NCBI GenBank assembly: GCA_001577635.1
Contig: LSBP01000003.1
Location: 105,267 to 169,266 of the forward strand
Direction of reading: 5' to 3'
DNA from: Halomonadaceae bacterium T82-2
GTDB taxonomy: Bacteria; Pseudomonadota; Gammaproteobacteria; Pseudomonadales; Halomonadaceae
Length of the DNA stretch: 64,000 nt
Shown: piece after piece, positions 16,376 through 49,840 of the stretch
Layout of the letters: every line of letters begins with the position of its first letter
Numbering within the stretch: position 1 is the first letter of the stretch
Position numbers and translations under genes: made by a program
Notes under the pieces: model-generated
What the model saw: only the letters and a program-made list of their open reading frames with translations
Told to the model about the DNA's origin: nothing
Databases searched by the model: none

Positions 16376-16428
16376 CCAGTACCTCGTCTACCGGTGATCC
16401 TCGGGCGTCGACGACGGCGTATCCGGCC

Positions 16429-16468: not shown

Positions 16469-16505
16469 TGTGGCATGCACCGGGAACCGTGCCATCAACG
16501 CGTCG

Positions 16506-18592: not shown

Positions 18593-18597
18593 GCGGT

Positions 18598-19539
18598 TCA
18601 GCCCTTGTAGAGTCTCGGGTTCATGACGTCACGCAGCCAGTCACCCAGCAGGTTGATGACCAGCACCAGCACCACCAGCACCGCGCCGGGAATCAGGGTG
18701 ATCCACCAGGAGCCGGATTGCAGGTAGTCGAAGCCCGACTTGATCAGCGAGCCCAGCGAGGGCTGGGTCTCCGGCATGCCCAGGCCGAGGAATGACAGCG
18801 CGGCCTCGGAGATGATGGCGTTGGCGATCTGCACGGTGGAGATGACGAAGATCGGCGACAGGGTGTTGGGCAGGATGTGTCGGAACATGATCCGTTTGGC
18901 GCGAAAGCCCATCACCCGCGCGGCATCGACGTATTCCTTGCTGCGCTCGGCGAGCACCGAGGCGCGCACGGTACGCGCGTACTGCGGCCATTCGGCCAGG
19001 CCGATGATCAACACCAGGATGATTACTGCATACTCGCTGTAGATGGCCCCGCCGAAGGTGGCCTTGATCACCGCGCCGACGATGATCGCCACCATCAGGG
19101 TGGAGAACGACAGCTGGATGTCCGCCAGGCGCATCAGGAAAGCATCCACGCGGCCGCCGAGGTAGCCGGCGAGCAACCCGAAGGTGACGCCCAGCATTGC
19201 CTGGAGGATGACCGCGCCGAAGCCGATGACCAGCGACACGCGGGCGCCGTAGAGGATCGTCGATAGCAGGTCACGGCCCTGGGCGTCGGTACCCAGCACG
19301 TAGGTGGGGTCGCTGCCGTCGATCCAGAACGGCGGCAGTTCGGAGGCGAGGATGTCGATCTGGGCCAGGTCGTAGGGATTCATCGGCGCCAGCCAGGGCG
19401 CCAGCACGGCGGCCAGCACCATGCCCAGGAAGGTCACCAGGCAGACTTGGGCGATCAGGTCACGCTTGAAGCTGTAGACCAGATAGGAGTCACGGAAGCG
19501 CGCCCAGCGCGAGGGCGCCGCGGAAGCAGAAGTCGTCAT
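18598..19539 (-). CDS. dppC: Dipeptide ABC transporter permease (DppC type)
   Basis: 313 residues with about six transmembrane helices and an N-terminal cytoplasmic extension (SYLVYSFKRDLIAQ). The EAA loop that contacts the ATPases is visible as EYVDAARVMGFRAKRIMFRH. The motif YVLGTDAQGRDLLS is characteristic of DppC/OppC proteins. Start overlaps the dppB-type stop by 4 bp, so translation is coupled. Confidence 0.92.
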   Translation of the reverse strand: MTTSASAAPSRWARFRDSYLVYSFKRDLIAQVCLVTFLGMVLAAVLAPWLAPMNPYDLAQIDILASELPPFWIDGSDPTYVLGTDAQGRDLLSTILYGARVSLVIGFGAVILQAMLGVTFGLLAGYLGGRVDAFLMRLADIQLSFSTLMVAIIVGAVIKATFGGAIYSEYAVIILVLIIGLAEWPQYARTVRASVLAERSKEYVDAARVMGFRAKRIMFRHILPNTLSPIFVISTVQIANAIISEAALSFLGLGMPETQPSLGSLIKSGFDYLQSGSWWITLIPGAVLVVLVLVINLLGDWLRDVMNPRLYKG

Positions 19540-20582
19540 GCGGGCTTACCTGTGAGTTTCACGGTGGGGTTGACGAGACCGTAGATCAGGTCGACGACCG
19601 TGTTGGTGATGACGAAGATCAGGCCGACCACCATCAGATAGGTGACGATCAGTGGAATGTCGGAGCGCTGGATGGCGTCGAGGAACATCAGTCCCACGCC
19701 CGGCCACTGGAAGACCGTTTCGGTGAGAATGGTGTAGGCGACCAGCGTGCCGATCTGCACGCCGCCGACGGTGATCACCGGTAGCATGGTGTTCTTCAGG
19801 GCGTGCAGGAAGTAGATGCGCCGCATGCTGATGCCCTTGGCCTTGGCGAACTTGATGTATTCGGACTGCAGGACCTCCATCATCTCGGCGCGGATCAGCC
19901 GGATGAACAGCGGCAGCATGATCGAGGCCAGCGAGATCGCCGGCAGCACCAGGTAGGTGAGCCCGTTAAGCGAGGCGAAGTTGGTATCCCAGGTGCCGAA
20001 GACATGGGTCACGTCGCCCCGGCCGTAGGCGGGCATGCCCCCGCTGGTGGACAGCAGGCCGTTGAGCCAGGCGCCCCAGGCGGTGTCGGCCGGAAACAGC
20101 GAAACGTGAATGCCGATGGCGAATATCTGGATCAGCACGATGGCGGTGAGGAACACCGGTATGGAAATGCCGACGATCGACACCCCCATGAACAGTCGCG
20201 ACAGCCAGGACCGTGGTCGGATGGCGCTGTAGACCCCGATCGGCACCGACAGCAGGATGATCAGCAGGGTGGTCGCGAAGACCAGCTCCAGCGTGGCGGG
20301 CAGGTGACGCATGATCACGTCGGTGGTCGGCTCGTTGTAGAAGTACGAATAGCCGAAGTCGAAGTGCAGGGCGTTCTCGGCGAAGCGCAGGTACTGCACC
20401 AGGAAGGGGTCGTTGAGACCCAGTTCCTCGCGCAGTTCAGCGCGCTCGCTCTCGGGCACCGACTGCCCGACCATCTGCTGGATGGGATCGCCCAGGTTGT
20501 CCTGAATGGCAAAGCTGACCACGCTGATGACGAACATCACCAGCAGGGCGTGAAAGAGTCGCTTGATCAGAAAGGCAATCAT
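19536..20582 (-). CDS. dppB: Dipeptide ABC transporter permease (DppB type)
   Basis: 348 residues. Typical DppB/OppB N-terminus (MIAFLIKRLFHALLVMFVIS) and the GDP motif as LGDPIQQM. The EAA loop reads EYIKFAKAKGISMRRIYFLH, and FQWPGVGLMFLDAIQRSD closes the family pattern. It is preceded, between it and the binding-protein gene, by a 9-bp hairpin with a UUCG loop that may lower expression of the permease relative to the binding protein. Confidence 0.92.
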   Translation of the reverse strand: MIAFLIKRLFHALLVMFVISVVSFAIQDNLGDPIQQMVGQSVPESERAELREELGLNDPFLVQYLRFAENALHFDFGYSYFYNEPTTDVIMRHLPATLELVFATTLLIILLSVPIGVYSAIRPRSWLSRLFMGVSIVGISIPVFLTAIVLIQIFAIGIHVSLFPADTAWGAWLNGLLSTSGGMPAYGRGDVTHVFGTWDTNFASLNGLTYLVLPAISLASIMLPLFIRLIRAEMMEVLQSEYIKFAKAKGISMRRIYFLHALKNTMLPVITVGGVQIGTLVAYTILTETVFQWPGVGLMFLDAIQRSDIPLIVTYLMVVGLIFVITNTVVDLIYGLVNPTVKLTGKPA

Positions 20583-20616
20583 GGATTGCGGCCCTGTTGG
20601 ATACGAAAGCCGCCAT

Positions 20617-20638
20617 CGACACCCCCGAAGGGGTGTCG
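20617..20638 (-). promoter_or_regulatory. Intercistronic UUCG hairpin between dppA and dppB
   Basis: Perfect 9-bp stem; on the transcribed (minus) strand it reads CGACACCCC, loop TTCG, GGGGTGTCG, an extra-stable C(UUCG)G tetraloop. Lying 34 bp before the permease start with no U-tract, it fits a processing or attenuation element giving more binding protein than membrane subunits. Confidence 0.7.
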
Positions 20639-20713
20639 AGACGCTTTCCGTGGCTTTGGAAACGGGTGGCCGGCGACGGCGGGCTCAAGCCACACCGTCG
20701 CCGCGGTCGCGCG

Positions 20714-22303
20714 TCAGTTCTGCTCGACGACCACATCACCCAGGTAGGGGAAGTTCATGACATTGAGCACCGGCTCGATCTGCACCTTGTTCTTGGCGGC
20801 CCAGGCCAGATCCTGCCAGTGCAGCGGAATGAAGGCGGCATCATCGTAGAGCCCCTTTTCCACGGCCTGCAGCATCTTGGCGCGCTTGTCGCGATCGGTC
20901 TCGAGGTTGGCCTTCTCGACCAGCTTGTCGAGTTCCGGGTTGCAGTAGTTGCCGCTGTTGTACTGGCCGGCCCCGGTATCGGGGTTCGGGCACTCGGTCA
21001 GGTACTGGTAGAAGTTGGCCGAGTCCTCGGTGTCGGCGTGCCAGCCAATCATCATGATGTCCGCGGCACGATCGTCGAACTCGCCCCAGTACTGGGCCTT
21101 GGGCAGGGTCTTGAGATCGACCTTGATGTTGATGCGCGCCAGCATGGCCGCCACCGCCTGGGCGATCTGGGCGTCGTTCACGTAGCGGTTGTTGGGCGCC
21201 ATCATGGTGATGCTGAAGCCGTCTTCGTAGCCGGCTTCCTTCATCAGCTGCTTGGCCTTTTCCAGGTCATAGCGCGGCTTGAGGTCCGGGTTGTGGCCCG
21301 AGTAGCCCTTGGGCGAGAGCTGGGCGGCCGGAGTGGCAAAGCCCTTCATCAGGCGGTCGGCGATCGCCTCCTGGTTGACGGCGTAGGCGATGGCCTTCCT
21401 GACTCGGGCATCCTTGAAGGCGTCGACGCGCTTCTGGTTCATCTGCAGGGTGATGATCCGCGTGCCGGACATGGTGACCAGCTTGACGTTCTTGTCGGCG
21501 CGCACCCGCTCCAGATCGTTGGGCGGCACCGGGGCGATGAAGTCGACATCGCCGGAGAGCAGCGCGGCCACACGGGTAGCGTTCTCGCTGATCGGTGTCA
21601 TGACGATGTGATCGACGTTGCCCGGGGAATCCTTGTCCCAGTAGTCGTCGAAGCGCTCGAACTCGACCTTCACGCCCTGCTGCCGGGCGGTGACCCGATA
21701 CGGCCCGGTGCCGGACTCGTGCCGCGAGGCGAAGGAGTTGCCGTTCTTGACGATCTCGCCCTTGTCCTTGCCGTTTTCCGTGGTGCCGGAGTAGAACTCG
21801 CTGTCCATCGGGAAAATGTAGGTGGAAAGGTTGAGCAGCAGCGGGTAGGGGCGCTTGGTGTGAATGTCGACGGTGTAGTCGTCGACGGCGTCGACGCTTT
21901 CGATGGGCTCGAAGATCGCCTTGAAGTCCGGGCTGCGCTTGAGGCGATTCACCGTCCAGACGACATCCTTGGCGGTGAAGGGGTTGCCGCTGTGGAACGT
22001 GACGCCCTGTCGCAGATGCAGGCGCATGGTGGTGTCGTCGATCTGTTTCCAGTCAGTGGCCAGGCGCGGTTCGAAGGTAAAGTCCTGGGTCCAGCGGACC
22101 AGCGGGTCGAAGACCAGGTGTGACAGTTGCAGGATGCCGCCGGACAACTGCTCGTGGATGTCCAGCGATACCGGGTCGGCATCGTAGGCGACGCGCAGGT
22201 TGACGTCTTTGCCGTCGCCAGTGACGTCCTGGGCGAGGGCGGCCATCGGCAGCGTCAGCGAGGCGCCGATCAGGGTGGCAAGCAGCGTTTTCTTGAATGT
22301 CAT
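20714..22303 (-). CDS. dppA: Peptide-binding protein of the dipeptide ABC transporter (DppA type)
   Basis: 529 residues, extracytoplasmic solute-binding family 5. Signal peptide MTFKKTLLATLIGASLTLPM with cleavage near ALA-QD. Markers of the family are LVFDPLVRWTQDF, the LRQGVTFHSGNPFTAKDV motif, and DVDFIAPVPPND in the middle lobe. It captures peptides in the periplasm and hands them to the permease. A start four codons upstream (22315) is also possible. First gene of the five-gene minus-strand operon. Specificity for di- rather than oligopeptides is inferred from operon layout only. Confidence 0.92.
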   Translation of the reverse strand: MTFKKTLLATLIGASLTLPMAALAQDVTGDGKDVNLRVAYDADPVSLDIHEQLSGGILQLSHLVFDPLVRWTQDFTFEPRLATDWKQIDDTTMRLHLRQGVTFHSGNPFTAKDVVWTVNRLKRSPDFKAIFEPIESVDAVDDYTVDIHTKRPYPLLLNLSTYIFPMDSEFYSGTTENGKDKGEIVKNGNSFASRHESGTGPYRVTARQQGVKVEFERFDDYWDKDSPGNVDHIVMTPISENATRVAALLSGDVDFIAPVPPNDLERVRADKNVKLVTMSGTRIITLQMNQKRVDAFKDARVRKAIAYAVNQEAIADRLMKGFATPAAQLSPKGYSGHNPDLKPRYDLEKAKQLMKEAGYEDGFSITMMAPNNRYVNDAQIAQAVAAMLARINIKVDLKTLPKAQYWGEFDDRAADIMMIGWHADTEDSANFYQYLTECPNPDTGAGQYNSGNYCNPELDKLVEKANLETDRDKRAKMLQAVEKGLYDDAAFIPLHWQDLAWAAKNKVQIEPVLNVMNFPYLGDVVVEQN

Positions 22304-22475
22304 GTAGTAACCCATGAATGGCTGATTGTTTGTTGTTTGACCCTTGGGTCCATCATCCAACATAGGGAGGCCGGGCGTCGGGCACAATCGAAAAACTGAC
22401 AGGTCTCATGCGCGGGGCGTATATGCGCCGTCCCGGCCGGAGAAATTCAGGGGAGAATCGGGAAGGGGGGATACG

Positions 22476-24948: not shown

Positions 24949-25527
24949 ATGACCATGACAACGCAATCCTTCACGCCTTCGGCGGAACTGGCCAAGCCCA
25001 GTGTCGCGGATGCCGTGGTCGGCAGTCAGCAGACGCCACTCTTCATCCGCAAGCCGACAACCGACGATGGCTGGGGCATCTACGAACTGGTCAAGTCCTG
25101 CCCGCCCCTTGATGTCAACTCCGCCTACGCCTACCTGCTGCTGGCCACGCAGTTCCGTGACAGCTGTGCCGTGGCCACGAACGAGGAAGGCGAGATCGTC
25201 GGCTTCGTCTCCGGTTATCCCAAGCGCAATTCGCCGGAAACCTACTTTCTCTGGCAGGTGGCCGTCGGCGAGAAAGCCCGGGGCACCGGTCTCGCGCGGC
25301 GGCTGGTGGAAGCCGTGATGCGGCGTCCCGAAATGGCTCACGTGCGTCATCTGGAAACCACCATCACGCCCGACAATCAGGCGTCCTGGGGGCTTTTCCA
25401 GCGTCTGTCCGATCGCTGGCAGGCGCCTCTCAACAGCCGGGAATACTTCTCCACCGACCAGTTGGGTGGCGAGCACGATCCCGAAAACCTGGTGCGCATC
25501 GGCCCCTTCGATCCCGAGCGCATCTGA
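24949..25527 (+). CDS. ectA: L-2,4-diaminobutyrate N-gamma-acetyltransferase EctA
   Basis: 192 residues; acetylates diaminobutyrate with acetyl-CoA, the second step from aspartate semialdehyde to ectoine. GNAT fold with the acetyl-CoA motif GEKARGTGLARRLVEAVM. DDGWGIYELVKSCPPLDVNS and AYAYLLLATQFRDSCAVA are nearly identical to Halomonas elongata EctA as I remember it. Two ATG codons lie two codons apart; the first was used. First gene of ectABC, 90 bp before ectB. Confidence 0.96.
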   Translation: MTMTTQSFTPSAELAKPSVADAVVGSQQTPLFIRKPTTDDGWGIYELVKSCPPLDVNSAYAYLLLATQFRDSCAVATNEEGEIVGFVSGYPKRNSPETYFLWQVAVGEKARGTGLARRLVEAVMRRPEMAHVRHLETTITPDNQASWGLFQRLSDRWQAPLNSREYFSTDQLGGEHDPENLVRIGPFDPERI

Positions 25528-26883
<1,356 letters not shown>

Positions 26884-26911
26884 CACACTGCGCCTGACGG
26901 CCGAATTCCCG

Positions 26912-26932
26912 GGCGGCCTTCTGCGGGCCGCC
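26912..26932 (+). promoter_or_regulatory. Intercistronic hairpin between ectB and ectC
   Basis: Perfect 7-bp stem GGCGGCC / GGCCGCC with a 7-base loop, followed by TTGTT, 28 bp after ectB. It may terminate part of the transcripts or protect the ectAB message. I saw no sigma-54 signature here. Confidence 0.55.
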
Positions 26933-26963
26933 TTGTTCATCGCTTGTCACAAGGGACACCACC

Positions 26964-27359
26964 ATGATCGTTCGCAATCTCGAAGAAGCCCGCAAGACGG
27001 ATCGCCTGGTTACCGCCGCCAACGGCAACTGGGACAGCACACGTCTGAGCCTGGCCGATGACGGCGGCAACTGCTCGTTCCACATCACGCGGATCTTTGC
27101 CAATACCGAGACCCATATCCACTACAAGCATCACTTCGAGGCGGTCTACTGCATCGAGGGCAAGGGTGAGGTGGAGACCCTGGCCGACGGCAAGATCTGG
27201 CCCATCGGTCCGGGCGACATCTACATCCTCGACCAGCATGACGACCATCTGTTGCGTGCCTCGGAGACCCTGGTGCTGGCCTGCGTCTTCACCCCGGGGC
27301 TGACCGGCAAGGAAGACCACCGCGAGGACGGCTCCTACGCACCGTCGGAAGAGCTCTGA
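26964..27359 (+). CDS. ectC: L-ectoine synthase EctC
   Basis: 131 residues, cupin-fold enzyme that cyclises N-gamma-acetyldiaminobutyrate to ectoine. The N-terminus [16 protein letters not shown], the metal/active-site region [20 protein letters not shown], and [18 protein letters not shown] are signature EctC. Length is usual (about 130). No ectD (hydroxylase), ask or ectR follows: a strong terminator ends the operon. Confidence 0.97.
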
Positions 27360-31092: not shown

Positions 31093-32520
31093 ATGGCAAG
31101 AAAGGACGAATCATCCAAGCTGCCCGACAGCACACAACTGGCCGTGATCGGTGGCGGGCCGGGCGGTTATGCCGCGGCCTTCGAGGCGGTCAAGCAGGGC
31201 TTGGACGTGACGCTGATCAACGACGAGGCGCCGGTCGGTGGCGTTTGCCTGCTGCGCGGCTGTATTCCTTCGAAGACGCTCCTCGAGGTCACCGAGCTGA
31301 TTCACACCAGCGAATCGGCGGAGACCATGGGCTTGCGCTTCGCCAGGCCCGAGATCGATGTCGATGCGCTCCGTCAGTGGAAGCAGAAGGTGGTGAAGAC
31401 GCTAACGGATGGCCTGGAAGGGCTGTGTCGTCAGCGCGGCGTGCGACTGGTCAGGGCTCGTGCGCGCTTCGCCGACGATCAGAACCTGACGGTCGAAGGT
31501 GACGACGTCTCGGGCACGTTGCGCTTCGAGCAGGCGATCATCGCTAGCGGATCGCGCCCGGTCGCCTTGCCGGGCGTGGATTTCGCCGAGAGCCGCCGAA
31601 TCATGGATTCCACCGGTGCTCTGGAACTCGAGGAGATCCCCGAGTCGTTGCTGGTCATCGGCGGTGGCTACGTGGGTCTGGAAATGGGCATGGTCTATCA
31701 GTCACTGGGCAGTCAGGTGACCGTGGTGGAAATGGCCGAGCGATTGATGCCCAACGCGGACGAGGATCTGGTCAAGCCGCTCGCCAGGACGCTGGAGTCG
31801 CGTTTCAAGGCCGTGCACCTCAAGACCCAGGTCTCCGGGCTGCATGAAACGCAGCGACAGGTAACGGTCACGCTGGAAGACGAGAACGGCTCGCGCGATC
31901 ACCGGTTCAGCCGCGTGCTGGTCGCGGTAGGCCGGCGTCCCAACAGCGAGGGGCTGGATCTCGACAAGGCCGGGGTGAGCTGTGATGACGCCGGTTTCAT
32001 CGAGATCGATGCTCAGTGTCGCACCAGCGTGTCGCATATTCATGCGATCGGCGACGTCGCCGGCGGCATGTTGCTGGCTCATGAGGCCATGCACCAGGGC
32101 AAGGTGGCGGCACGCACGGCGGCCGGCCAATCGGCGGCTTTCGATGCGCGCGCGGTACCGGCCGTCGTGTACACCGTGCCGCAGCTCGCCTGGTGCGGGC
32201 TGACCGAAGCCCAGGCTCGGGACGAGGATCGCGAGATCCAGGTTCTCAAGTTTCCCTGGCAGGCGGCCGGGCGCGCCTTGTCGCTGCAGGCCGATTACGG
32301 CCTGAGCAAGCTGATCGTCGAGCCGGACAGCGGGCGCTTGCTGGGTGCCGGGATCGTCGGGCCTCAGGCGGAGTCACTGATCGGCGAGGCAGTGCTGGCC
32401 ATCGAGATGGGCGCCGTCGCCGAGGATCTGGCCTTGACCGTGCACCCGCATCCGACACTCACCGAAACCCTCGGCGAGGCCGGTGAGCTGTTTCTCGGTG
32501 GCTCGACGCATTACGGTTAA
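31093..32520 (+). CDS. lpdA: Dihydrolipoamide dehydrogenase (E3)
   Basis: 475 residues, FAD disulfide oxidoreductase reoxidising E2 lipoamide with NAD. FAD motif VIGGGPGGYAAAFEA, redox cysteines in GGVCLLRGCIPSKTLLE (about 52 and 57), second nucleotide motif VIGGGYVGLEMGMV, HAIGDVAGGMLLAHEAMHQG, and the catalytic His-Glu in TVHPHPTLTETLGE near the C-terminus. There is no N-terminal lipoyl domain. Last gene of the four-gene operon. Confidence 0.92.
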   Translation: MARKDESSKLPDSTQLAVIGGGPGGYAAAFEAVKQGLDVTLINDEAPVGGVCLLRGCIPSKTLLEVTELIHTSESAETMGLRFARPEIDVDALRQWKQKVVKTLTDGLEGLCRQRGVRLVRARARFADDQNLTVEGDDVSGTLRFEQAIIASGSRPVALPGVDFAESRRIMDSTGALELEEIPESLLVIGGGYVGLEMGMVYQSLGSQVTVVEMAERLMPNADEDLVKPLARTLESRFKAVHLKTQVSGLHETQRQVTVTLEDENGSRDHRFSRVLVAVGRRPNSEGLDLDKAGVSCDDAGFIEIDAQCRTSVSHIHAIGDVAGGMLLAHEAMHQGKVAARTAAGQSAAFDARAVPAVVYTVPQLAWCGLTEAQARDEDREIQVLKFPWQAAGRALSLQADYGLSKLIVEPDSGRLLGAGIVGPQAESLIGEAVLAIEMGAVAEDLALTVHPHPTLTETLGEAGELFLGGSTHYG

Positions 32521-32641: not shown

Positions 32642-32669
32642 ATTTCGCATAATGTATATTATGTTAAAT
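32642..32669 (+). other. dif: dif chromosome-dimer resolution site (XerCD target)
   Basis: 28 bp with exact XerCD architecture: XerC arm ATTTCGCATAA, 6-bp central region TGTATA, XerD arm TTATGTTAAAT. The XerD arm, the centre and the last eight bases of the XerC arm are identical to Escherichia coli dif; the TTCGCATAA form matches the Pseudomonas-type site. It lies in an AT-rich intergenic stretch between lpdA and opgG. dif is where XerC/XerD, activated by FtsK, resolve chromosome dimers, so this marks the replication terminus. The function is inferred from sequence identity; a silent copy or an element-borne site is the alternative. Confidence 0.93.
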
Positions 32670-32767: not shown

Positions 32768-34354
32768 GTGGACCGGAAGAACGTCATGGCTTCGTGCCCC
32801 GCCCCTCAGGATAACCGCCCTCGCCGCTTCGCGATGCTGGGTCTGCTGGGAATTGCCCTCGCCCTGGCTGCCCCCGCCAGTTTCGGCTTCGGCTTCGAGG
32901 ATGTCGCCAAACGGGCGAAGACACTGGCCGACAAGCCCTATCAACCGCCGGAAACCAACACGACACCGCGGCTGCGCAATCTGGAGTACGAGCAATACGC
33001 GCAGATCCAGTACCGCATGGACCATGCCGTGTGGCGGGATGAAGGCCTGCCGTTCAATCTCAGCTTCTTTCATGAAGGCATGCACTATACCAGCAGCGTG
33101 CAGATGAACATCGTCGATGGCGATCAGGTGCAGCGCATCGAGTTTGATCCCGACGATTTCTACTATGGAGATCTCAAGCTGGACAAGGCGGATCTCGACC
33201 AGCTCGGTTTCGCCGGGCTCAAGATCCACTTTCCCATCAACGACCCCGACAACATTGATGACGAGATCATGGTGTTTCAGGGTGCCAGCTACTTTCGCGT
33301 GATTGGGCGCGATCAGATCTATGGGCTGTCGGGACGCGGTCTGGCCATCGATACCGAGACGCCATCCGGCGAGGAGTTTCCGGACTTCCGCGAGTTCTGG
33401 ATCGAGAAGCCGGCGGCGGACGCCGACTCGCTGACGATCCATGCCCTGCTCGATTCGCCCAGCGCCACCGGGGCCTATCGCTTCGTGCTCACGCCGGGCG
33501 ACGATTCGGTGGTGGACGTGAAATCCCGCGTCTACCTGCGCAAGCCGGTCGTCAAGCTGGGCATCGCCCCGTTGACCAGCATGTTTTTCTACGGACCGTC
33601 CCAGCCGGCCAAGCAGGTCAACTTTCGCCCGGCTATCCACGACTCGAATGGCCTGCTGATGCATGGTGCCGAATCCGGCTGGACCTGGCGGCCACTGGTC
33701 AATCCGGCCGGTGTCGAGGTCAACGACTATGCTGTTCAGTCGCTCGAAGGGTTCGGGCTGCTACAGCGCTCCCATGATTTTCGGGATTACGAGGATCTCG
33801 TCGATCGCTATGATCGGCGGCCGAGCGCCTGGGTGGAACCGACCAACGACTGGGGCCCCGGTTCCGTGGAACTGCTGGAGCTTCACACACCCAATGAGAC
33901 CTACGACAACATCGCCGCTTTCTGGCGGCCGGATGACGTGGCTAGCCCCGGCAAGCCGATGGAGTTCGACTACCGGATCCACTGGACCCGCCAGGAGTCG
34001 AAGCTGCTCGATCCGCAGCTGGCCTGGGTGGACCAGACGCGGCGCTATCCGGGCGAAGTACGCCGGGACGACCTGGTCCGCCAGCCGGATGGCTCGATCG
34101 GCTTCGTCGTCGACTTCAAGGGCGGCGCTGCGGCTGCTGGCACCGCTCCGCAGCCCTGGATCCAGGTCGGTGACAATGGCAAGCTGATCGAGAGTCAGCT
34201 CATGCAGAATACGGCCGCGGGCGGCTGGCGGTTGAAACTGCGCGTCAAGCGGAACGACGAGGCGCGCCCGCTGGAAGTGCGTGCCCGACTGCAGGCCGAG
34301 GATGGCAAGCGGCTGTCCGAGACCTGGTTCTACCGGCTGCCGTCCGACGGCTGA
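32768..34354 (+). CDS. opgG: Periplasmic glucan biosynthesis protein OpgG (MdoG)
   Basis: 528 residues. An N-terminal export signal (RRFAMLGLLGIALALAAPAS) is followed by the OpgG domain: FGFEDVAKRAKTLADKPYQ, RMDHAVWRD, FFHEGMHYTSSV, FQGASYFRVIGRDQIYGLSG and GAESGWTWRPLVNP are all classic. OpgG shapes or modifies the beta-glucan backbone in the periplasm. The GTG start is set by AAAGGA eight bases upstream. In most gammaproteobacteria opgG is followed by the membrane glucosyltransferase opgH; here an acyltransferase gene takes that place. Confidence 0.93.
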   Translation: MDRKNVMASCPAPQDNRPRRFAMLGLLGIALALAAPASFGFGFEDVAKRAKTLADKPYQPPETNTTPRLRNLEYEQYAQIQYRMDHAVWRDEGLPFNLSFFHEGMHYTSSVQMNIVDGDQVQRIEFDPDDFYYGDLKLDKADLDQLGFAGLKIHFPINDPDNIDDEIMVFQGASYFRVIGRDQIYGLSGRGLAIDTETPSGEEFPDFREFWIEKPAADADSLTIHALLDSPSATGAYRFVLTPGDDSVVDVKSRVYLRKPVVKLGIAPLTSMFFYGPSQPAKQVNFRPAIHDSNGLLMHGAESGWTWRPLVNPAGVEVNDYAVQSLEGFGLLQRSHDFRDYEDLVDRYDRRPSAWVEPTNDWGPGSVELLELHTPNETYDNIAAFWRPDDVASPGKPMEFDYRIHWTRQESKLLDPQLAWVDQTRRYPGEVRRDDLVRQPDGSIGFVVDFKGGAAAAGTAPQPWIQVGDNGKLIESQLMQNTAAGGWRLKLRVKRNDEARPLEVRARLQAEDGKRLSETWFYRLPSDG

Positions 34355-35785: not shown

Positions 35786-36241
35786 ATGCCCGATATCCAG
35801 ACATTGACCCGACAGGCCGAGCGCCAGTGCCAGCAGCGCGGCGTGCGCTTCACGCCGATTCGCCGCCGGGTGCTGGAGCTGATTGCCGGCTCGTCCGGTG
35901 GGCTCAAGGCCTACGACCTGCTCGATCGCCTGGCTGTCGAACACGGTGCCGCCCGGCCACCGACGGTCTATCGGGCCCTCGACTTTCTGATCGAACAGGG
36001 GCTGGTGCATCGCATCGAGTCGCTCAACGCCTACGTGGCCTGCCCCTGCCCCGAACATCATCACGGCTTCCAGCTGCTCATCTGTCGGCATTGCGGGCGT
36101 GTCGAGGAACTGCACCTGGATGACGTCAATGCCCAGCTCAGTGCCCGGGCGGCCGCGCTGGGGTTTGCGGTGGACCGCCAGACCATCGAGCTGCTCGGTA
36201 CCTGCGATGCCTGCCGGGCCTCGGCGGCCGGCGGCGCCTGA
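35786..36241 (+). CDS. zur: Fur-family zinc uptake regulator Zur
   Basis: 151 residues. Winged-helix DNA-binding half (RGVRFTPIRRRVLELIAGS, then RPPTVYRALDFLIEQGLVHR) and a dimerisation half with structural zinc cysteines ICRHCGR and GTCDACR. The sequence CPCPEHHHGFQLLICRHCG is the Zur-like version of the metal-sensor region. Zur represses zinc uptake and zinc-sparing genes when zinc is plentiful. No Zur-type palindrome is apparent immediately upstream. hisI and yidD follow closely on the same strand. Confidence 0.88.
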   Translation: MPDIQTLTRQAERQCQQRGVRFTPIRRRVLELIAGSSGGLKAYDLLDRLAVEHGAARPPTVYRALDFLIEQGLVHRIESLNAYVACPCPEHHHGFQLLICRHCGRVEELHLDDVNAQLSARAAALGFAVDRQTIELLGTCDACRASAAGGA

Positions 36242-36277
36242 CCATTCCTTCGGATCCGCGATATACAGGCCTCTCCC

Positions 36278-36721
36278 ATGAGTGAACTCTTCAAGACCCT
36301 GGAAACCGCCGAACGCGGTGACACCCGCCCTGCCGAGGCCCTGCTGGCCGCCATGCGCTGGAACGCCGAGGGGCTGGTGCCGGCGATCGCCCAGCAGCAC
36401 GATACCGGCGAGGTGCTGATGATGGCCTGGATGAACCGTCAGGCCCTGGAGGAAACCCTCCGGACGGGGCGGGTCTGCTACTGGTCCCGCTCGCGCGGCA
36501 AGTTGTGGCGCAAGGGCGAGTCGTCCGGACAGGTACAGCAGCTCAAGCGCGCCTATCTGGACTGCGACGGTGATACGTTGCTGCTGGCGGTCGATCAGGC
36601 GGGGCCAGCCTGTCACTCCGGGCGGCGCAGCTGCTTCTATGTGGCGCTGGACGATGAGCACGGCGAAGTCGTCAGTGATCCGCTGATCGACCCTGCGACG
36701 CTGTATGGCGCCTCGCACTGA
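36278..36721 (+). CDS. hisI: Phosphoribosyl-AMP cyclohydrolase HisI
   Basis: 147 residues, HisI only (no HisE fusion); opens the purine ring of phosphoribosyl-AMP in histidine synthesis. The magnesium/zinc signature is intact: [13 protein letters not shown], then [12 protein letters not shown], with the three zinc-ligand cysteines at the canonical spacing of 16 and 7 residues. [14 protein letters not shown] and [15 protein letters not shown] are family blocks. It sits 36 bp after zur, an unusual place for a histidine gene; HisI paralogues in zinc regulons are known. The 3' end overlaps yidD by 17 bp. Confidence 0.92.
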
Positions 36722-37064
36722 AGCCCGCGCCGGCCGCTGGCTGGCCTGGCCGCTGATCGGCCTGATCAAGGGCTATCAGTGGCTGATCAGCCCCCTGCTC
36801 GGCCCCCGGTGCCGTTTCTGGCCGAGCTGTTCCCACTACGCCATCGAGGCCCTGCGTACCCACGGGCCATTTCGGGGCAGCGTCCTTGCGGGGCGGCGCA
36901 TCCTGCGCTGCCACCCCGCTTCGGCGGGCGGTATTGATCCGGTGCCGGGCGGGCCCAGCGAGAAGCTATGTCGTGACGATCCGGAGCTCGATGCTGGATT
37001 CCGCCCCCGGGACGCATCCGAAGGCTCGGCAACTCGGCGGAACGTTTCGGGCGGCGAAAGCTAG
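36705..37064 (+). CDS. yidD: YidD-family membrane-insertion efficiency factor
   Basis: 119 residues. Core YidD domain (about 10-85): [49 protein letters not shown] and GGIDPVP, with the three conserved cysteines. It has an amphipathic N-terminal helix and acts at the inner membrane. The last 30 or so residues are a non-conserved tail, making it longer than the usual 70-90. YidD is normally encoded between rnpA and yidC; here it overlaps hisI in the zur cluster. Confidence 0.88.
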
Positions 37065-37071
37065 TCTGGGC

Positions 37072-37485
37072 TCAGGCAGCTTCCTGCTCGGCGACGGCAA
37101 AGATGCGCTTGAGCATCGCGTGCAGCCCGTTGGAACGGGTCGGTGACAGATGCTTGTCGAGGCCGAGTTCCTCGAGGAAGGACGGTGGCGTCGCGACAAT
37201 CTCCGCGGGGGAGCGGTCGTTGTAGATGCGCATCAGCACGGCGATCAGCCCGGAGACGATGGCGGCATCGGAGGTCGCCTGGAAATGCAGCTGGTCGCCC
37301 TGGCGCTCGTGGTGAATCCAGACATTCGACTGACAGCCCTGGATCTTGTTTTCCGGCGTTTTCAGGGTCTCGGGAAAGGCCGGCAACTGCTTGCCCATGT
37401 CGATGATGTACTGGTAGCGGTCCATCCAGTTGTCGAAGAAACCGAATTCCTCGACCAGTTCCGCCTGGGCTTGCTGGGCACTCAT
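37072..37485 (-). CDS. sufE: SufE-family cysteine desulfurase activator
   Basis: 137 residues. The sulfur-accepting cysteine is visible in NKIQGCQSNVWIHH; DNWMDRYQYIIDMGKQLPAFP and GLIAVLMRIYNDRSPAEI are typical SufE/CsdE blocks. It accepts sulfane sulfur from a SufS/CsdA-type desulfurase for iron-sulfur cluster assembly. The ATG has a perfect AGGAGGAG site; the open frame upstream is spurious. No sufS or csdA is next to it, so it could equally be CsdE. Converges with yidD, 7 bp apart. Confidence 0.88.
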   Translation of the reverse strand: MSAQQAQAELVEEFGFFDNWMDRYQYIIDMGKQLPAFPETLKTPENKIQGCQSNVWIHHERQGDQLHFQATSDAAIVSGLIAVLMRIYNDRSPAEIVATPPSFLEELGLDKHLSPTRSNGLHAMLKRIFAVAEQEAA

Positions 37486-37547
37486 GATCTCTCCTCCTGA
37501 TTCGTCGGCGGCATTATAACGGCTCGGCGGCGAGGCGTCGTCCGTCC

Positions 37548-38714
37548 TTAGGGCGTGTCGGTCAGCCGATGCGCACCGATCTGACGATGCCACTCCTCGG
37601 CTTCGGCGTGCAGGTAACGGGCCGTGGTGTCGAGCCGCGAGTGGCGTGCGGTTCGGGCCAGGTAGCGCAGCTCCACACCGGCCTGGGCCTGATGGGTGAT
37701 CGCCGTGTGGCGCAGCCAGTGCGGCGTGGCCTCGGCAAGCCGGCCGGCCAGACGGATCACCGCATCCGGCGCGTCAGGGTCCGCGGCCAGAGCCTTGGCC
37801 GCACGGATGAAGGTGCGCTTGATCAGCCGGTAGAGCTGGTTGTCGCCGACGCCGCGCTCGCCGTCCAGCGCCCGGATGACCGGCGCGTCCTCCCCGGCGT
37901 CGGGTCTTTCGGGCAGGCCCAGATGTGCCCGCCATCCGCCGAGCAGCACCATCATGTCCTCGGGTACCGGGATGCGCGCGAGCTTGCCGCCCTTCCCCAC
38001 CACCTGCCACCACCACTGCCCTTCCCGGAACTGAAAGTCCGCCATGCGGGCGTCGGCCATCTCGCGGATGCGGGGGGCCAGCAGGTAACCAAAACCGAAG
38101 ACCAGTCGGTCGCGCTGCCACAACCGCCACTCGCGGGGCGTGGCATCCCCGGCAAGCGGCCGGTTCAGCCAGTTCCAGAACCAGTTCCAGAGCGGGCGCT
38201 CGAGATAGCGCTCGATGCCGGGCTGACGGTTGTCCAGGCGGCGGCGCTTGTCGCGCATCAGGCGAAACGGGTTATGGTCGATCCACCCCGCCTCCACCAG
38301 CCAGCTGCACAGCCCCTGCAGGATCGTCAGGCTCTGCCGCCGACTGGCGGCGGACAGCGGGCCGCGAAACGGCCGCCACTGAGGATGGGTGCGCCCACGC
38401 GGCGGACCGATCCAGCGTGACGCCGGCTGCGGGTCGGCCAGGAAGGCCTCGAAGGCCTGCAGTGCCTGGCGATCGATATCGGCCAGTCGCATCCCGCGCT
38501 CGGCGAGCCACAGAAGAAGCCGCTCGCTCTCCTTGCGATAGGCGCGGAAGGTCTGCGGCGTCGCCCGGTACTCTTCGAGCCAGCACCCCACGGCCTCGGC
38601 ATCCGTGGTCGCCGCGATGCGAGAGACCCGCGCCGCCACCTCGCCCTGCTGCGCGGCCGGCGGTGCTTCGCCCCGGGCCGTGATGGCGCGTGGCCCTGTC
38701 TCGCTCTCTGCCAT
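37548..38714 (-). CDS. Tyrosine site-specific recombinase (integrase family)
   Basis: 388 residues. N-terminal SAM-like core-binding domain (about 40-150: TPQTFRAYRKESERLLLWL) and C-terminal catalytic domain. Catalytic residues are complete: Arg 215 in APRIREM, Lys in GKGGKLARIPV (about 241-244), His-x2-Arg in PHWLRHTAITH (332, 335), His 358 in ARHSRLDTT and nucleophile Tyr 367 in ARYLH. Divergent from a KfrA-like gene, with no excisionase, no tRNA and no phage genes nearby, so it looks like a resident chromosomal recombinase and not the remnant of an island. It is neither XerC nor XerD by length or layout. A GTG four codons upstream is an alternative start. Confidence 0.85.
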   Translation of the reverse strand: MAESETGPRAITARGEAPPAAQQGEVAARVSRIAATTDAEAVGCWLEEYRATPQTFRAYRKESERLLLWLAERGMRLADIDRQALQAFEAFLADPQPASRWIGPPRGRTHPQWRPFRGPLSAASRRQSLTILQGLCSWLVEAGWIDHNPFRLMRDKRRRLDNRQPGIERYLERPLWNWFWNWLNRPLAGDATPREWRLWQRDRLVFGFGYLLAPRIREMADARMADFQFREGQWWWQVVGKGGKLARIPVPEDMMVLLGGWRAHLGLPERPDAGEDAPVIRALDGERGVGDNQLYRLIKRTFIRAAKALAADPDAPDAVIRLAGRLAEATPHWLRHTAITHQAQAGVELRYLARTARHSRLDTTARYLHAEAEEWHRQIGAHRLTDTP

Positions 38715-38784
38715 GTCCTTTCCCACCCTTCCCCTGCCTCGTGGCTTTCCAGGAGGCCCAGTGTCGCCAATACGGTACCTGATA

Positions 38785-38808
38785 TCAAGATAAGCCGCGT
38801 AATCTTGA
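38785..38808. repeat. Inverted repeat in the recombinase/KfrA intergenic region
   Basis: Perfect 7-bp arms TCAAGAT / ATCTTGA around a 10-bp spacer. The size resembles a tyrosine-recombinase core site or a dimer operator; it lies 71 bp upstream of the recombinase start. Confidence 0.5.
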
Positions 38809-38826
38809 ATTTTCAGTGAGCATCAT

Positions 38827-38860
38827 ATGTAAAATATGTAATTACATAATACGTAAAATA
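38827..38860. promoter_or_regulatory. Palindrome flanked by direct repeats, probable KfrA-type operator
   Basis: A perfect 14-bp palindrome TATGTAATTACATA (38835-38848) is flanked by near-identical direct repeats ATGTAAAATA (38827-38836) and ACGTAAAATA (38851-38860), 24 bp apart. The block is extremely AT-rich against the surroundings and lies 74 bp before the KfrA-like gene. KfrA proteins of plasmids bind their own promoter, so an autoregulatory operator is likely. Confidence 0.65.
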
Positions 38861-38933
38861 GCGACACGTCTGCCACGTTTGCAGTAGACTGCGTTGCAAC
38901 GCTGGGGGCGCAAATCGTTCAGGAGGAATAGGC

Positions 38934-39899
38934 ATGGCACGCAGCGGTGTGCAGTACGCGGATGTTCGGCAGGCCATCGAGGTGCTGCTCAAGCGCGGCG
39001 AAACGCCGGGAGTTCAGAAGATCCGTGACGTGCTGGGCACGGGCAGCTTCACCACCATCAGCGAACACCTTCGGGAGTGGCGCACCCGCTGCGAGGAGAA
39101 TCGCGACGAGCCCGCAGCCAGCGAGATACCCGACGCCATCACGGCGCTGATGCAGACACTCTGGGAACAGGCACAAGCAGCGGCGGCCGACGAACTCGCC
39201 CATTACCGCGAGGCGGCCGACAAGGCCGTGGCCTCTGCCCGTGAGGAATCGGTACAAGCGCGTCGCGAGGCGGAAGATGCCCGCGAGCGGGAGAAGGCGC
39301 TCAACGAGCACCTGACTCAGGCACAGCAGCAGTTGCAGACGCAGAGTGCGGAGCTGGCAAGGCAGCAGGCGGCCCGCGAGGCTGCGGAACGACACGGCGA
39401 ACAGCTCGCCGAGCGCTGCGCGCAGCAGCAGGCCGAGCTGGCCGACGAACAGGTGCGCCGGGAGCGCCTTGCCGAGACGCACCAGGCCGCCCTGGCGGAA
39501 CAGCAGGCCGAGTGGCGCAAGCGGCTGGATCAGGAAGAAAAACGCAACGAGGCGGCCGAGGGCCGGCTCATGACCCTGCTCGATGAGGCGCGCCAGGAAC
39601 ACCAGCGCAGCGAAAAGCAGCTTCAGCAGCGCCTGTCGTCGCTGGAAGCGCGGCTACGGGAGGCGGACGAGGCGTTGCGCGAGACGCGGCGGGAACAGGC
39701 GGAAGCCCAGGCCGCACAGCGCGAGACGCAGTGGGCGCTGCAGCAGGCCGAAGCCGCGTTGCAGGAGGCAAGGCGTCGGGAGGAGGCTCTGGAAGCGGAC
39801 GCCGAAGGCTATAAGCAGGAGCGGGACGAGGCGCGCACGAAACTGCGCGAGGCCGAGGCGCGACTGGCTCGCCTGCCGTTGCCGCCCTTCGTCTACTGA
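38934..39899 (+). CDS. KfrA-like DNA-binding coiled-coil protein
   Basis: 321 residues. Residues about 5-60 match the KfrA N-terminal DNA-binding domain (VQYADVRQAIEVLLKRG, then VLGTGSFTTISEHLREWR). Residues about 70-310 are an uninterrupted Ala/Glu/Gln/Arg-rich coiled coil. Plasmid KfrA is an autorepressor with a long alpha-helical tail linked to segregation. Chromosomal copies have no settled role. An AGGAGGAATAGG site gives the start. It is divergent from the recombinase gene across a 219-bp AT-rich region with palindromes. Ends in a hairpin shared with nfuA. Confidence 0.87.
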   Translation: MARSGVQYADVRQAIEVLLKRGETPGVQKIRDVLGTGSFTTISEHLREWRTRCEENRDEPAASEIPDAITALMQTLWEQAQAAAADELAHYREAADKAVASAREESVQARREAEDAREREKALNEHLTQAQQQLQTQSAELARQQAAREAAERHGEQLAERCAQQQAELADEQVRRERLAETHQAALAEQQAEWRKRLDQEEKRNEAAEGRLMTLLDEARQEHQRSEKQLQQRLSSLEARLREADEALRETRREQAEAQAAQRETQWALQQAEAALQEARRREEALEADAEGYKQERDEARTKLREAEARLARLPLPPFVY

Positions 39900-39904
39900 C
39901 ACGC

Positions 39905-39930
39905 GCATGACCGCCGGCCGGCGGTCATGC
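39905..39930. terminator. Shared hairpin between the KfrA-like gene and nfuA
   Basis: A perfect 26-bp palindrome (arms GCATGACCGCCG / CGGCGGTCATGC) sits between two convergent genes. No U-tract, but its position suits a two-way terminator. Confidence 0.65.
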
Positions 39931-39946
39931 CACGCAGTTCAGCGCA

Positions 39947-40537
39947 TCAGCGATAGTAGGCGTTGGTGTTGTCGGTGTGGTCGGTCACGTCACGGATACC
40001 GGACAGTTCGGGAATGCGCTCCAGCAGGGTCTTCTCGACGCCCTCCTTGAGGGTCAGGTCGACGGCCGCGCAGCCCTGGCAGCCCCCGCCGAACTGCAGC
40101 ACGGCGTAGTTCTCGTCGGTGAGCTGGATCAGGCGGATCTCGCCGCCGTGGGCCGCCAGTCCGGGATTGATCTCGCTGTAGAGGATATAGTTGATGCGAT
40201 CCTCCAGCGGGCTGTCGGCATTGACCTTGGGCATCTTGGCGTTGGGCGCCTTGATGGTCAGCTGCCCCCCCATGCGGTCGGCGTTGAAATCGACCACGGC
40301 CTCTTCAAGGAACGGCACGCTGTGGGTATCGACGAAGACGGTGATCTTCTCCAGCGTCATCTTCTCGTCGCTCGGCTCTTCCTCGCCGGGGCGGCAGTAG
40401 GCCAGGCAGGTTTCGGCATAGGGCGTGCCCGGCTGGGTGATGAAGATGCGCACTGCGATCCCTTCGACGTTCTGCTTGGCGAGCAGTTCGGCGAGGTAGT
40501 CCTGGGCGCTGTCGGTAATCTGGATGCTTTCGCTCAT
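39947..40537 (-). CDS. nfuA: Iron-sulfur cluster carrier NfuA
   Basis: 196 residues. The N-terminal A-type-like domain ([19 protein letters not shown]) is the degenerate targeting module, and the C-terminal Nfu domain carries the cluster-binding CxxC in [19 protein letters not shown]. It binds a [4Fe-4S] cluster and delivers it to target proteins, especially under stress. Length matches Escherichia coli NfuA (191). The same reading frame stays open for 2.7 kb upstream across metH, which is a composition artefact. The start lacks a strong ribosome site. Confidence 0.92.
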
Positions 40538-40747
40538 CAGTCGGGTCCCGTCAGGGTTGAAGATTTTCCTGACATGGTAAGAAAAAACCCCGGCAGGCAC
40601 AATCCTGACTGAAATACTGGGTTTTAGGCATCGAGTCCCGCCGCTGTCACGAGTCTGGTAGGATATTGCCCCTGACAGAACCGGCGCAGGCGCCCCGTTG
40701 CCGCCCTTGCGACAGGACATACCGAAAAACGACGCTGCTGGAGACAC

Positions 40748-44487
<3,740 letters not shown>

Positions 44488-44491
<4 letters not shown>

Positions 44492-45810
44492 TCGACGCCG
44501 CACGCAGCCAGGTGATTCTTCGCCTGGCGCTGCCGATCATCGGCGGCATGCTCTCGCAGAGCCTGCTCAACCTGGTGGACGCCGCCTTCGTCGGCGCGCT
44601 GGGCGAAGTGCCGCTGGCCGGTGTGGGGCTGGGCGGTTATGCCATGTTCCTGATCACCGCGGTGGTGTTCGGGCTGTCCTCGGGGGTGCAGTCCCAGACT
44701 GCCCGCCGCCATGGCGAAGCCGCCTATGCGCGCCGCGCCCAGCCTCTCGAGGCCGGGTTGCTGATCGCCCTGGCGGTCGCCCTGCCGCTGACCGCGCTCT
44801 GCCTCTGGCAGGCGCCGCGGCTGATCGGGCTGCTGACCGGTCAGCCGGATGTCGCGGCGGTGGCCGTGGCCTATCTGCGCTGGCGCCTGGTGGGGCTGGT
44901 GCCGATCGCCCTGATCTTCTGCTTTCGCGGCTACTGGAACGGCATCCAGCAGACGCGCATCTATCTGGGCATCATGCTGGTCACCCATGCCCTCAACGTG
45001 GCGGTCAGCGCCGGGTTGATCTTCGGCCTGGCGGGGCTGCCCGAACTTGGTGCAGCGGGCGCCGGGGCCGGGACCACCGTGGCCCTGACGGTGGCCCTGC
45101 TGCTGTGGGGAATCAGCAGCTGGCGCCACACGCAGCGCACCCGCGAACGCTGGCGATGGCCTCGTCTCGCCGTGATGCGCCGCACGCTGGCCCTGGCCGC
45201 CCCCCACTCCTTCCAGCAGATGTGGTTCGCCGGCGGCTATGCCGCGCTGTTCTGGATTCTCGGCCAGATCGGGACCGCCAGCGTTGCCGTGGGGCATGTG
45301 CTGGTCAACCTGTCGCTGCTGCTGATTCTCCCCGGGGTCGGCCTGGGACTGGCGGCCATGAGCCTGGTGGGTCAGGCGCTGGGCCGCGACACCCCGCATG
45401 ACGCCCATCGCTGGGGCTGGGACGTGGTGCGCGTGGCCTGGATCTGCCTGTCGGTGCTGGCCCTGCCGATGCTGATCTTCCCCGATCGGGTATTGAGCGT
45501 TTTCCTGCCCGCAGACCTCATCCCGCTCGGCCGCCTGCCGCTGCAGCTGACGGCGCTGATGATCGTGCTCGACGCCGCCGCCATCGTGCTCGGCCAGGCC
45601 CTGCTGGGAGCCGGTGCCAACCGGACCGTCATGGTGCTGACCCTGGCCCTGCAGTGGCTGGTGTTCCTGCCGATGGCCTGGTGGGTCGGTGTCCACCAGG
45701 GAGCCGGGCTGCTCGGTGTCTGGTGGGCGCAGCTCGGCTATCGGGGGCTCAACTCGCTGTCGTTCGCGATGGTCTGGCAGCGCCGCCGCTGGCAGCAGGT
45801 TGTCGTGTAG
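44488..45810 (+). CDS. MATE-family efflux protein, DinF type
   Basis: 440 residues, about twelve transmembrane helices in two pseudo-repeats typical of MATE exporters: [20 protein letters not shown] then [20 protein letters not shown] at the start, and a second half opening near [20 protein letters not shown]. These proteins use sodium or proton gradients to expel cationic drugs or metabolites. The start chosen overlaps the metH stop (ATGA); the longer frame lies inside metH. Substrate unknown. Confidence 0.9.
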
Positions 45811-45819
45811 CGGCGGTGC

Positions 45820-45836
45820 AAGGCCGGCTTGGCCTT
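45820..45836 (+). terminator. Weak hairpin after the MATE gene
   Basis: 6-bp stem AAGGCC / GGCCTT with loop GGCTT, followed by TGTCCTT, 9 bp past the stop. A modest terminator candidate. Confidence 0.45.
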
Positions 45837-45885
45837 TGTCCTTGGCGTAAGGCGTTTAATAACCATAAAGACAGAAAGTATGATT

Positions 45886-45908
45886 ATTTATTCTTTCATA
45901 GAATAAAT
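45886..45908. promoter_or_regulatory. LysR-type box (CysB-like candidate) in the cysI promoter
   Basis: Perfect 9-bp arms ATTTATTCT / AGAATAAAT with spacer TTCAT, containing the LysR-type ATTC-N7-GAAT pattern (T-N11-A). A -10-like TATGAT (45879-45884) abuts it. It lies 66 bp before the sulfite reductase start. CysB, the LysR regulator of cysteine synthesis, is the natural candidate. Confidence 0.6.
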
Positions 45909-45974
45909 CCGGCGGAGTATGGTCGGGGCATGGCATGGATCCCATTTCGCCCTGACTAGCAGGACAACTCCGGT

Positions 45975-48150: not shown

Positions 48151-48158
48151 AATCTCAC

Positions 48159-48190
48159 GAGCGGCCCCGGAGGGGCCGCTCGCTTCTTTT
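48159..48190 (+). terminator. Rho-independent terminator after the sulfite reductase operon
   Basis: 10-bp perfect stem GAGCGGCCCC / GGGGCCGCTC with loop GGA, followed by GCTTCTTTT. It may also serve the convergent Smr gene, whose stop lies a few bases beyond. Confidence 0.9.
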
Positions 48191-48193
48191 GGG

Positions 48194-48787: not shown

Positions 48788-48949
48788 GGCGACACCCTCC
48801 CTCTTGGTCCGAATCTCGATGTTAGCAAAGGAACGAGGCCAGCCTAAGCCTCGGTAAGGCTGTCGTTATTGTCGATAGCCAGGCTCCGGGGCTGGGAAGG
48901 TGAGCGTTGCTGTGGCAGGGTCCGGATAACGACCGACAAGGAGGCGCGC

Positions 48950-49809: not shown

Positions 49810-49840
49810 CGCCTCTCGCCTTCCCTTCTTTGCCCGCTGA

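Follow-up and report, generated by a model that had tools for sequence, protein, structure and literature searches.

The window, i.e., the 64,000-nucleotide stretch of DNA analyzed here, carries the chromosomal dif site and, beside it, a plasmid-type module built around a single tyrosine recombinase, which probably represents a second dimer-resolution system and the sole one in some relatives that have lost XerCD/dif. As deduced from sequence comparisons, this reading is assigned a probability of approximately 0.7. XerCD/dif is present in most bacteria, where FtsK travels along its polar motifs (KOPS) to dif and activates XerCD, by which chromosome dimers are converted into monomers. To our knowledge, the way in which single-recombinase systems replaced XerCD/dif is poorly understood. 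In the group studied here, which has many cultured members, the two systems lie a few kb apart in most genomes, and some relatives show an apparently replaced state, so that the replacement of XerCD/dif becomes testable.

The dif site and the polarity of its surroundings

The dif site (32642-32669, forward strand) is 28 bp long with an 11-6-11 geometry and consists of the XerC arm ATTTCGCATAA, the centre TGTATA, and the XerD arm TTATGTTAAAT. As proposed in the initial annotation, it is located between an lpdA-type gene for a dihydrolipoamide dehydrogenase-like protein (31093-32520) and an opgG-like gene for MdoG/OpgG (32768-34354). The window corresponds to C16:105267-169266 of a 3.42-Mb draft genome of 55 contigs, the contig bearing dif being 213.5 kb long. 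The site was the sole match at ≤3 mismatches within the window (0 in 100 shuffles), and the recommended search of the whole 3.42-Mb draft also recovered no second match at this threshold (reversed control: 0). Furthermore, the near-identity to the Escherichia coli and Pseudomonas sites was reproduced, with 3 out of 28 positions differing from the E. coli dif. Compared to the dif of P. aeruginosa PAO1, 2 out of 28 positions differ, and Haemophilus influenzae has the same XerC arm (PMC2731167). The genome of the window encodes XerD (363 bits to the XerD model, over the curated cut-off) and a second protein (251 bits to the same model), which was taken as XerC, both on contigs other than that of dif; an FtsK_gamma domain was also detected over its cut-off. 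In total, 94 out of 117 genomes, the one studied here included, contain a dif match, 93 of them one each and G106 three. A megablast search of the dif region against plasmids returned no match. In the 23 dif-less genomes, most matches to relaxed dif patterns were noise, no more frequent than with the reversed control; one convincing site was recovered in G034, 8.75 kb from the recombinase gene and in the usual arrangement.

The polarity around dif was analyzed using the KOPS motif GGGNAGGG, its degenerate form GNGNAGGG, and the backwards-read motif GGGANGGG as a control. On the 213.5-kb contig, 16 forward and 3 reverse copies of GGGNAGGG were counted left of dif, and 2 forward and 17 reverse copies right of it. 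The best switch interval of GGGNAGGG (127726-141310) contains dif at contig position 137908, as does the narrower interval of GNGNAGGG (135926-138710). The best switch of the control GGGANGGG likewise fell around dif (17/23 consistent), so part of the signal represents general G-richness of the strand. The GC skew changes across dif from +0.053 to -0.018, with the maximum of the cumulative skew lying 28 kb right of dif on a nearly flat curve. In the window itself, four forward KOPS (11992, 21101, 21843, and 22460; span 11992-22467) point toward dif from the left and six reverse ones (36044, 37990, 38019, 38726, 52404, and 53980; span 36044-53987) from the right, accompanied by one opposed forward motif at 52413, right of dif. 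Four of the six reverse motifs are placed between dif and the near-palindrome described below.

The identity of the site is supported by its uniqueness and conservation, by KOPS convergence and the change in GC skew, and by the genes for XerD, an XerC-like protein, and FtsK-gamma, and the plots of GC skew and FtsK polar motifs suggested along with the annotation show the change of polarity at dif. In its site architecture, single copy, proteins, and polarity switch, it corresponds to the XerCD/dif system of the E. coli type, sharing with it the 28-bp 11-6-11 site, XerD/XerC-like/FtsK-gamma, and KOPS convergence, and differing in the outer bases of the XerC arm, which is nothing important. The sequence at 32642-32669 is thus a genuine chromosomal dif, on its own an ordinary one, and would be the working site of an ordinary XerCD/FtsK system. 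The initial observation and its interpretation were thereby upheld. A P. aeruginosa strain whose chromosome arms are unequal terminates replication and segregation at separate positions (PMC6199493), and dif is for this reason better named the segregation terminus. The distance between dif and dnaA, measured the shorter way, amounts to 44-50% of the genome in 10 out of 12 one-contig relatives (fractions worked out by hand, with some genome lengths rounded). Compared to these ten, dif is unusually near dnaA in G035 (~20%) and G100 (~8%), which reflects either strongly unequal arms or assembly faults.

Some variation of the site itself was also observed. Within the best 80 named loci of a genome scan with the recombinase, dif was found in the flanking sequence of 67, five of which have a changed XerC arm (CGCAGAA or CGTAGAA; L149, L157, L173, L183, and L146); four of these five (Halomonas almeriensis, elongata, halmophila, and eurihalina) additionally have dif in the opposite orientation with respect to the recombinase gene. 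In the order-level relative G106, the canonical dif lies on the large one of contigs C1, C3, and C4, and identical dif-like sites with the altered centre TTCGCATAAACTATCTTATGTTAAAT lie on the two others. These two contigs and C2 also bear KfrA-like matches; the extra contigs are perhaps secondary replicons using XerCD.

The recombinase, its putative target site and the KfrA-type gene

The expectation that a dif site would make any recombinase nearby more interesting proved justified: a tyrosine recombinase gene (37548-38726, reverse strand; 392 aa; PF00589, E 3e-11) was identified 5-6 kb away. With 59 and 40 bits to TIGR02224 and TIGR02225, compared to cut-offs of 335 and 330, its product was ruled out as XerC or XerD, which are encoded elsewhere in the genome. 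The residues R219, K245, H336, R339, H362, and Y371, presumably those of the active site, show no substitution in any of the 22 aligned homologues, as would be expected of a working enzyme. XerH is among its profile and fold matches. The predicted structure, parts of which are good (mean pLDDT 84, pTM 0.60, low confidence around residues 363-372), gave poor whole-chain Foldseek superpositions (TM to query 0.29-0.36, rmsd >10 Å for nearly all matches listed), so the model points to the fold class only.

At E ≤ 1e-20, a homologue was found in 64 out of 73 family genomes, represented by a fragment in G006, by two pieces in G046, and by a gene with one in-frame stop in G004. The nine family genomes without a match at this threshold comprise eight with XerC/D matches and G036, which has none. 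The fragment in G006 (C1:1528128-1528283) is a 52-residue remnant adjoining a full-length KfrA match, apparently a recent loss within the genus of the window itself. Among the best 80 named loci of the scan, the closest match was that of Modicisalibacter tunisiensis (88% identity), which makes the source of the window a relative of Modicisalibacter (Halomonadaceae). A dif match is also present in 58 of the 64 recombinase genomes, in all 58 on the same contig at a distance of ≤18.2 kb, and in 55 in the same orientation. To place this linkage in context, 22 dif regions (±20 kb) from 21 genera were compared, the contig of the window being outside this set. Matches to hisI, yidD, and sufE were found in 22/22 regions each and to metH in 20; the recombinase was matched in 19 regions, as was KfrA. 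Linkage to dif alone proves nothing, because hisI, yidD, and sufE are at least as tightly linked; closeness to dif was ruled out as a sign of function in itself, the block hisI-yidD-sufE-recombinase-KfrA-metH being conserved as a whole. The tabulated matches include one of the three dif sites of G106 and the first of the two recombinase pieces of G046; the KfrA table is without second matches of G001, G003, and G047 and three matches of G106, and that for metH without G074, G088, G090, G094, G098, G103, G104, G116, and the second pieces of G003 and G066.

Divergently from the recombinase gene, a KfrA-type gene (38934-39899, forward strand; 321 aa; PF11740, E 4e-24) was detected, its product carrying KfrA_N over the cut-off and SMC matches far below theirs, which were taken as coiled coil. 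The KfrA proteins of low-copy plasmids (PMC7783346) share the KfrA_N domain and the coiled coil; the gene of the window differs in being chromosomal, near dif, and divergent from a recombinase gene. The region between the two genes contains a 28-bp near-palindrome of 11-6-11 geometry with three arm mismatches (38783-38810), the proposed target site of the recombinase, and an element rich in A+T that contains repeats of the TACGTA/ATTACATAA type (38824-38859), a candidate KfrA operator to judge from its sequence.

Palindromes of the 28-bp 11-6-11 type were first met in the dif-less genomes G109 and G115, within 20 kb around distant recombinase homologues, where the arms extend to 16 and 18 bp and the palindrome lies 8.3 kb (G109) and 0.7 kb (G115) from the recombinase gene. 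No KfrA match was found within these 20-kb stretches; in G109, one is located 54 kb away. Four recombinase-positive genomes outside the family were examined for the palindrome (G077, G101, G109, and G115), and no similar palindrome was found in 20 kb in G077 and G101. Perfect palindromes (ATTCATGATAA-N6-TTATCATGAAT) occupy the recombinase-KfrA intergenic region in G034 and in G015, G038, G053, and G064, the last four representing a single genus (g3) and hence non-independent cases. A family pattern, drawn from such loci themselves and from genus g3, matched the 213.5-kb contig only at 38783-38810 (≤5 mismatches). In 79 of the best 80 loci, this dif-like site with two similar arms adjoins the recombinase gene exactly once at ≤4 mismatches (77 loci at ≤3), compared to one match of the reversed pattern in the same 1.66 Mb; these loci overlap with the 117-genome set, and the two sets are not independent. 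In L175, the locus without the palindrome, 151 bp of sequence precede the recombinase match. In 77 of the 79 loci, the palindrome is 41-266 bp ahead of the point where the recombinase BLAST match starts, and in the other two 1.0 and 3.0 kb ahead of it.

In G016 and G030, KfrA was kept and the recombinase was not found; upstream of KfrA, no palindrome was detected and the TACGTA-type element was retained. This pattern suggests that the palindrome goes with the recombinase and the TACGTA element with KfrA. No TACGTA was found upstream of KfrA in G025 and G032, and no palindrome upstream of the recombinase gene in G029 and G031, which keep it apart from KfrA. From these sequence comparisons, the palindrome seems to follow the recombinase and not KfrA.

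Plasmid and phage records were searched at 1e-10. Recombinase homologues were detected in 1454 out of 72,556 plasmid records, none of them reaching 60% identity, and in 1 out of 50,697 phage records. Among the 40 plasmid loci listed, ten were examined (H1, H2, H3, H12, H16, H20, H28, H31, H34, and H39). A gene annotated as 'DNA-binding protein' lies within ~3 kb of the recombinase in seven of these ten, the record of H16 being unannotated, and all five such neighbors tested contain KfrA_N. At lax settings, a palindrome was found upstream of the recombinase in six of the ten plasmid loci (L272, L275, L276, L279, L280, and L281; that of L275 with a 7-bp centre) and none in L273, L274, L277, and L278. 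At strict settings, it was recovered in two of the first six (shuffle mean 0.008 per 5 kb). The plasmid of Halioglobus pacificus carries a perfect palindrome (ATTCATGATTA-N6-TAATCATGAAT) ending ~160 bp before the recombinase match. Plasmid homologues, KfrA_N neighbors, and upstream palindromes together mark the module as plasmid-like.

The segment 37548-39899 may thus be described as a second, self-contained module of a kind known from large plasmids, comprising one tyrosine recombinase, a 28-bp near-palindrome, and a KfrA-type protein. Two copies of the recombinase would bind the near-palindrome and exchange strands, and KfrA would bind the TACGTA element as its own operator.

KOPS polarity and the loss of XerC and XerD

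The presence of XerC/D was assessed in the 117 genomes using the XerD model (E ≤ 1e-35), by which XerC is recognized as well. No match was obtained in 15 genomes, and G064 has only matches below the cut-off. Among the XerCD-negative family genomes, G015, G038, and G053 (all g3) as well as G040 carry the recombinase and G036 does not. G040 lacks both XerC/D and dif matches, compared to three other genomes of its genus (g5), which have both; a recent loss of XerCD/dif or a gap in the draft is possible. Outside the family, 44 genomes were included, one per family. Recombinase homologues were present in 6 out of 10 XerCD-negative genomes (G077, G090, G101, G104, G109, and G115) versus 0 out of 34 positive ones (hypergeometric p ~3e-5, calculated by hand and ignoring phylogeny). 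Five of these 34 (G074, G079, G087, G095, and G098) have only sub-cut-off XerC/D matches; with the curated cut-off as the dividing line, the ratio becomes 6/15 versus 0/29 (p ~7e-4). None of the six carriers has a dif match at ≤3 mismatches. The XerCD-negative genomes G036, G083, G088, G093, and G105 yielded no recombinase homologue at E ≤ 1e-20; the last four are from outside the family, and G083 is 81% complete.

The KOPS orientation between the two sites was compared in 17 of the 22 dif regions, the other five (G016, G029, G030, G031, and G033) having no palindrome within 20 kb. All 43 copies of GGGNAGGG between dif and the palindrome point at dif, as do 92 copies of the degenerate motif GNGNAGGG versus 28; the contig of the window, outside the 22, adds four more motifs of the same sense. 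A different picture emerged for seven recombinase carriers with absent or weak XerC/XerD and no dif match, since the KOPS were found to converge on the palindrome in six of them. In G064 (394 kb), the palindrome at 762462 falls within the switch intervals of GGGNAGGG (761549-768686) and GNGNAGGG (761549-762579), with the skew maximum 22 kb away. In G053 (350 kb), the palindrome at 237620 lies within 235973-240341 (GGGNAGGG) and 235973-238546 (GNGNAGGG, tied with a 54-bp interval elsewhere); here the skew peaks at 240072, 2.5 kb from the palindrome. For G109 (359 kb), the switch was placed at 207722-215338 by GGGNAGGG and at 210666-215338 by GNGNAGGG, both of which include the palindrome at 212069 and not the recombinase at 220540; the skew maximum is 47 kb left of the palindrome. 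In G064 and G053, the control GGGANGGG has its best switch elsewhere than at the palindrome; of its three tied best intervals in G109, one covers the palindrome. For G015, G038, and G115, only 20-40 kb were available, in which 8/9, 11/11, and 5/5 copies of GGGNAGGG, respectively, are consistent with a switch at the palindrome. In the same stretches, GNGNAGGG agrees in G115, gives five tied intervals in G015, one of them containing the site, and gives a best interval in G038 that stops 0.8 kb short of the palindrome. No support came from G034, with few KOPS, or from G040, whose palindrome is poor (3 mismatches) and whose 20 kb contain one copy of GGGNAGGG. Where the sequence sufficed, KOPS converge on dif in the presence of XerCD and on the palindrome in its absence.

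A single-recombinase system is expected to show a full active site distinct from XerC/XerD, an adjoining dif-like site with two similar arms, the absence of XerC/XerD, and a location of its site at the polarity switch. The first two features were found for the module; in the genome of the window, XerC/D are present and the switch lies at dif, so the module is proposed to work like such a system and not to be the resolver of the chromosome here. Since the KOPS are directed at dif and not at the palindrome as long as XerCD/dif is present, the module probably acts as an auxiliary resolver in such genomes, that of the window included. In several lineages in which XerC, XerD, and dif were not detected, the retention of the module and the convergence of KOPS on its palindrome suggest that it probably turned into an FtsK-directed resolution system, to judge from position and from presence and absence. 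The course of events that appears somewhat favored is that the module settled by dif early in the family as a second dimer resolver and took over after the loss of XerC/XerD/dif, the KOPS polarity shifting by a few kb from dif to the palindrome. If this is true, the family preserves both the two-system and the replaced state, representing a natural series for the exchange of a core segregation system.

Three other explanations were weighed against the two-system reading. In the one deserving most attention, though unlikely, only dif matters: the recombinase and KfrA would descend from a plasmid, having been domesticated and then retained by synteny, and the palindrome would be an operator of divergent promoters. 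The synteny of the whole block around dif, with hisI/yidD/sufE in 22/22 regions, the location of the palindrome between divergent promoters, and the absence of the recombinase from 9 out of 73 family genomes agree with such a remnant. An operator would, however, hardly account for KOPS converging on it in six of the seven genomes examined that have no or only weak XerC/XerD, for its sharing the geometry of dif, or for its position in G109, 8.3 kb from the recombinase gene and away from the promoter of the latter. Furthermore, palindrome and recombinase are missing together in G016 and G030, which have KfrA, and outside the family the recombinase homologues were found only in XerCD-negative genomes.

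It is far less probable that the palindrome represents a second XerCD site, i.e., a duplicate of dif or the scar of an XerCD-using element, unconnected with the recombinase. Its right arm TTATCTTGAAT does equal the XerD arm TTATGTTAAAT at 9 out of 11 positions, but the palindrome is perfect in the g3 genomes, in which XerC/XerD are absent or weak, it was not found in G016 and G030, which keep XerC/D matches and have no recombinase, and similar palindromes adjoin some of the plasmid homologues. Least probable of all is that an ordinary integrase, of a phage or an island, came to lie near dif by chance. The recombinase has the tyrosine-recombinase fold, it matches an integrase family best among the PHROGs, and a phage integrase ranks first in Foldseek, although at a TM of only ~0.35; against this stand its occurrence as one copy (in G046 as two pieces) in a fixed neighborhood across genera, the invariant active site in the 22 aligned homologues, and the contrast between plasmid and phage records reported above, in view of which a phage integrase was rejected as a likely identity.

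Known resolution systems and gene content around dif

The two-system reading places the module beside XerS/difSL and XerH/difH, in which one recombinase gene likewise lies next to its own dif-like site (PMC5357621). XerS and XerH are presented there as the alternative to XerCD within their groups, whereas the module coexists with XerCD/dif in most family genomes and additionally has a KfrA partner, a 28-bp site, and a 6-bp centre. XerL of the Legionellales is a gammaproteobacterial single recombinase with a palindromic site near the skew switch, for which no XerCD was found; its orthologues were sought within the Legionellales (PMC9765430). Compared by description only, the module adds the coexistence with XerCD, the KfrA partner, and the plasmid relatives. 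For plasmid R27, a self-encoded tyrosine recombinase (Y-rec) and an FtsK-dependent XerCD site are described in PMC11724359, where their redundancy was shown. Both R27 and the replicon of the window thus combine a tyrosine recombinase with an XerCD site; in contrast to R27, again by description only, the two systems of the window are both chromosomal. In the same paper, non-XerCD systems were suggested not to acquire FtsK control easily (PMC11724359). The module bears on whether plasmid-type resolution can come under FtsK control, and the KOPS switch to the palindrome would be a counter-example to that suggestion. No report of a chromosomal recombinase/KfrA module was found among the 8-20 top-ranked papers of each literature search, most subscription papers being outside its scope.

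The gene content directly beside dif appears to vary between lineages. None of the 22 regions contains a close match to the lipoamide dehydrogenase gene on the left side of dif (segment 27575-35688), and the genes before it look like other pyruvate dehydrogenase genes. Right of dif, opgG and an acyltransferase gene have a match in 1/22 regions each, and the genes on both sides of dif are apparently lineage-specific insertions. Considering the best row of each of the 30 best-scoring family genomes, opgG is located within 20 kb of dif in 7, and it lies on the dif contig in 17 and on another contig in 13. Farther to the left, an aminotransferase gene and its two neighbors (24949-27359), which resemble an ectoine synthesis cluster, have matches within ~14 kb of dif in 18 out of 22 regions.
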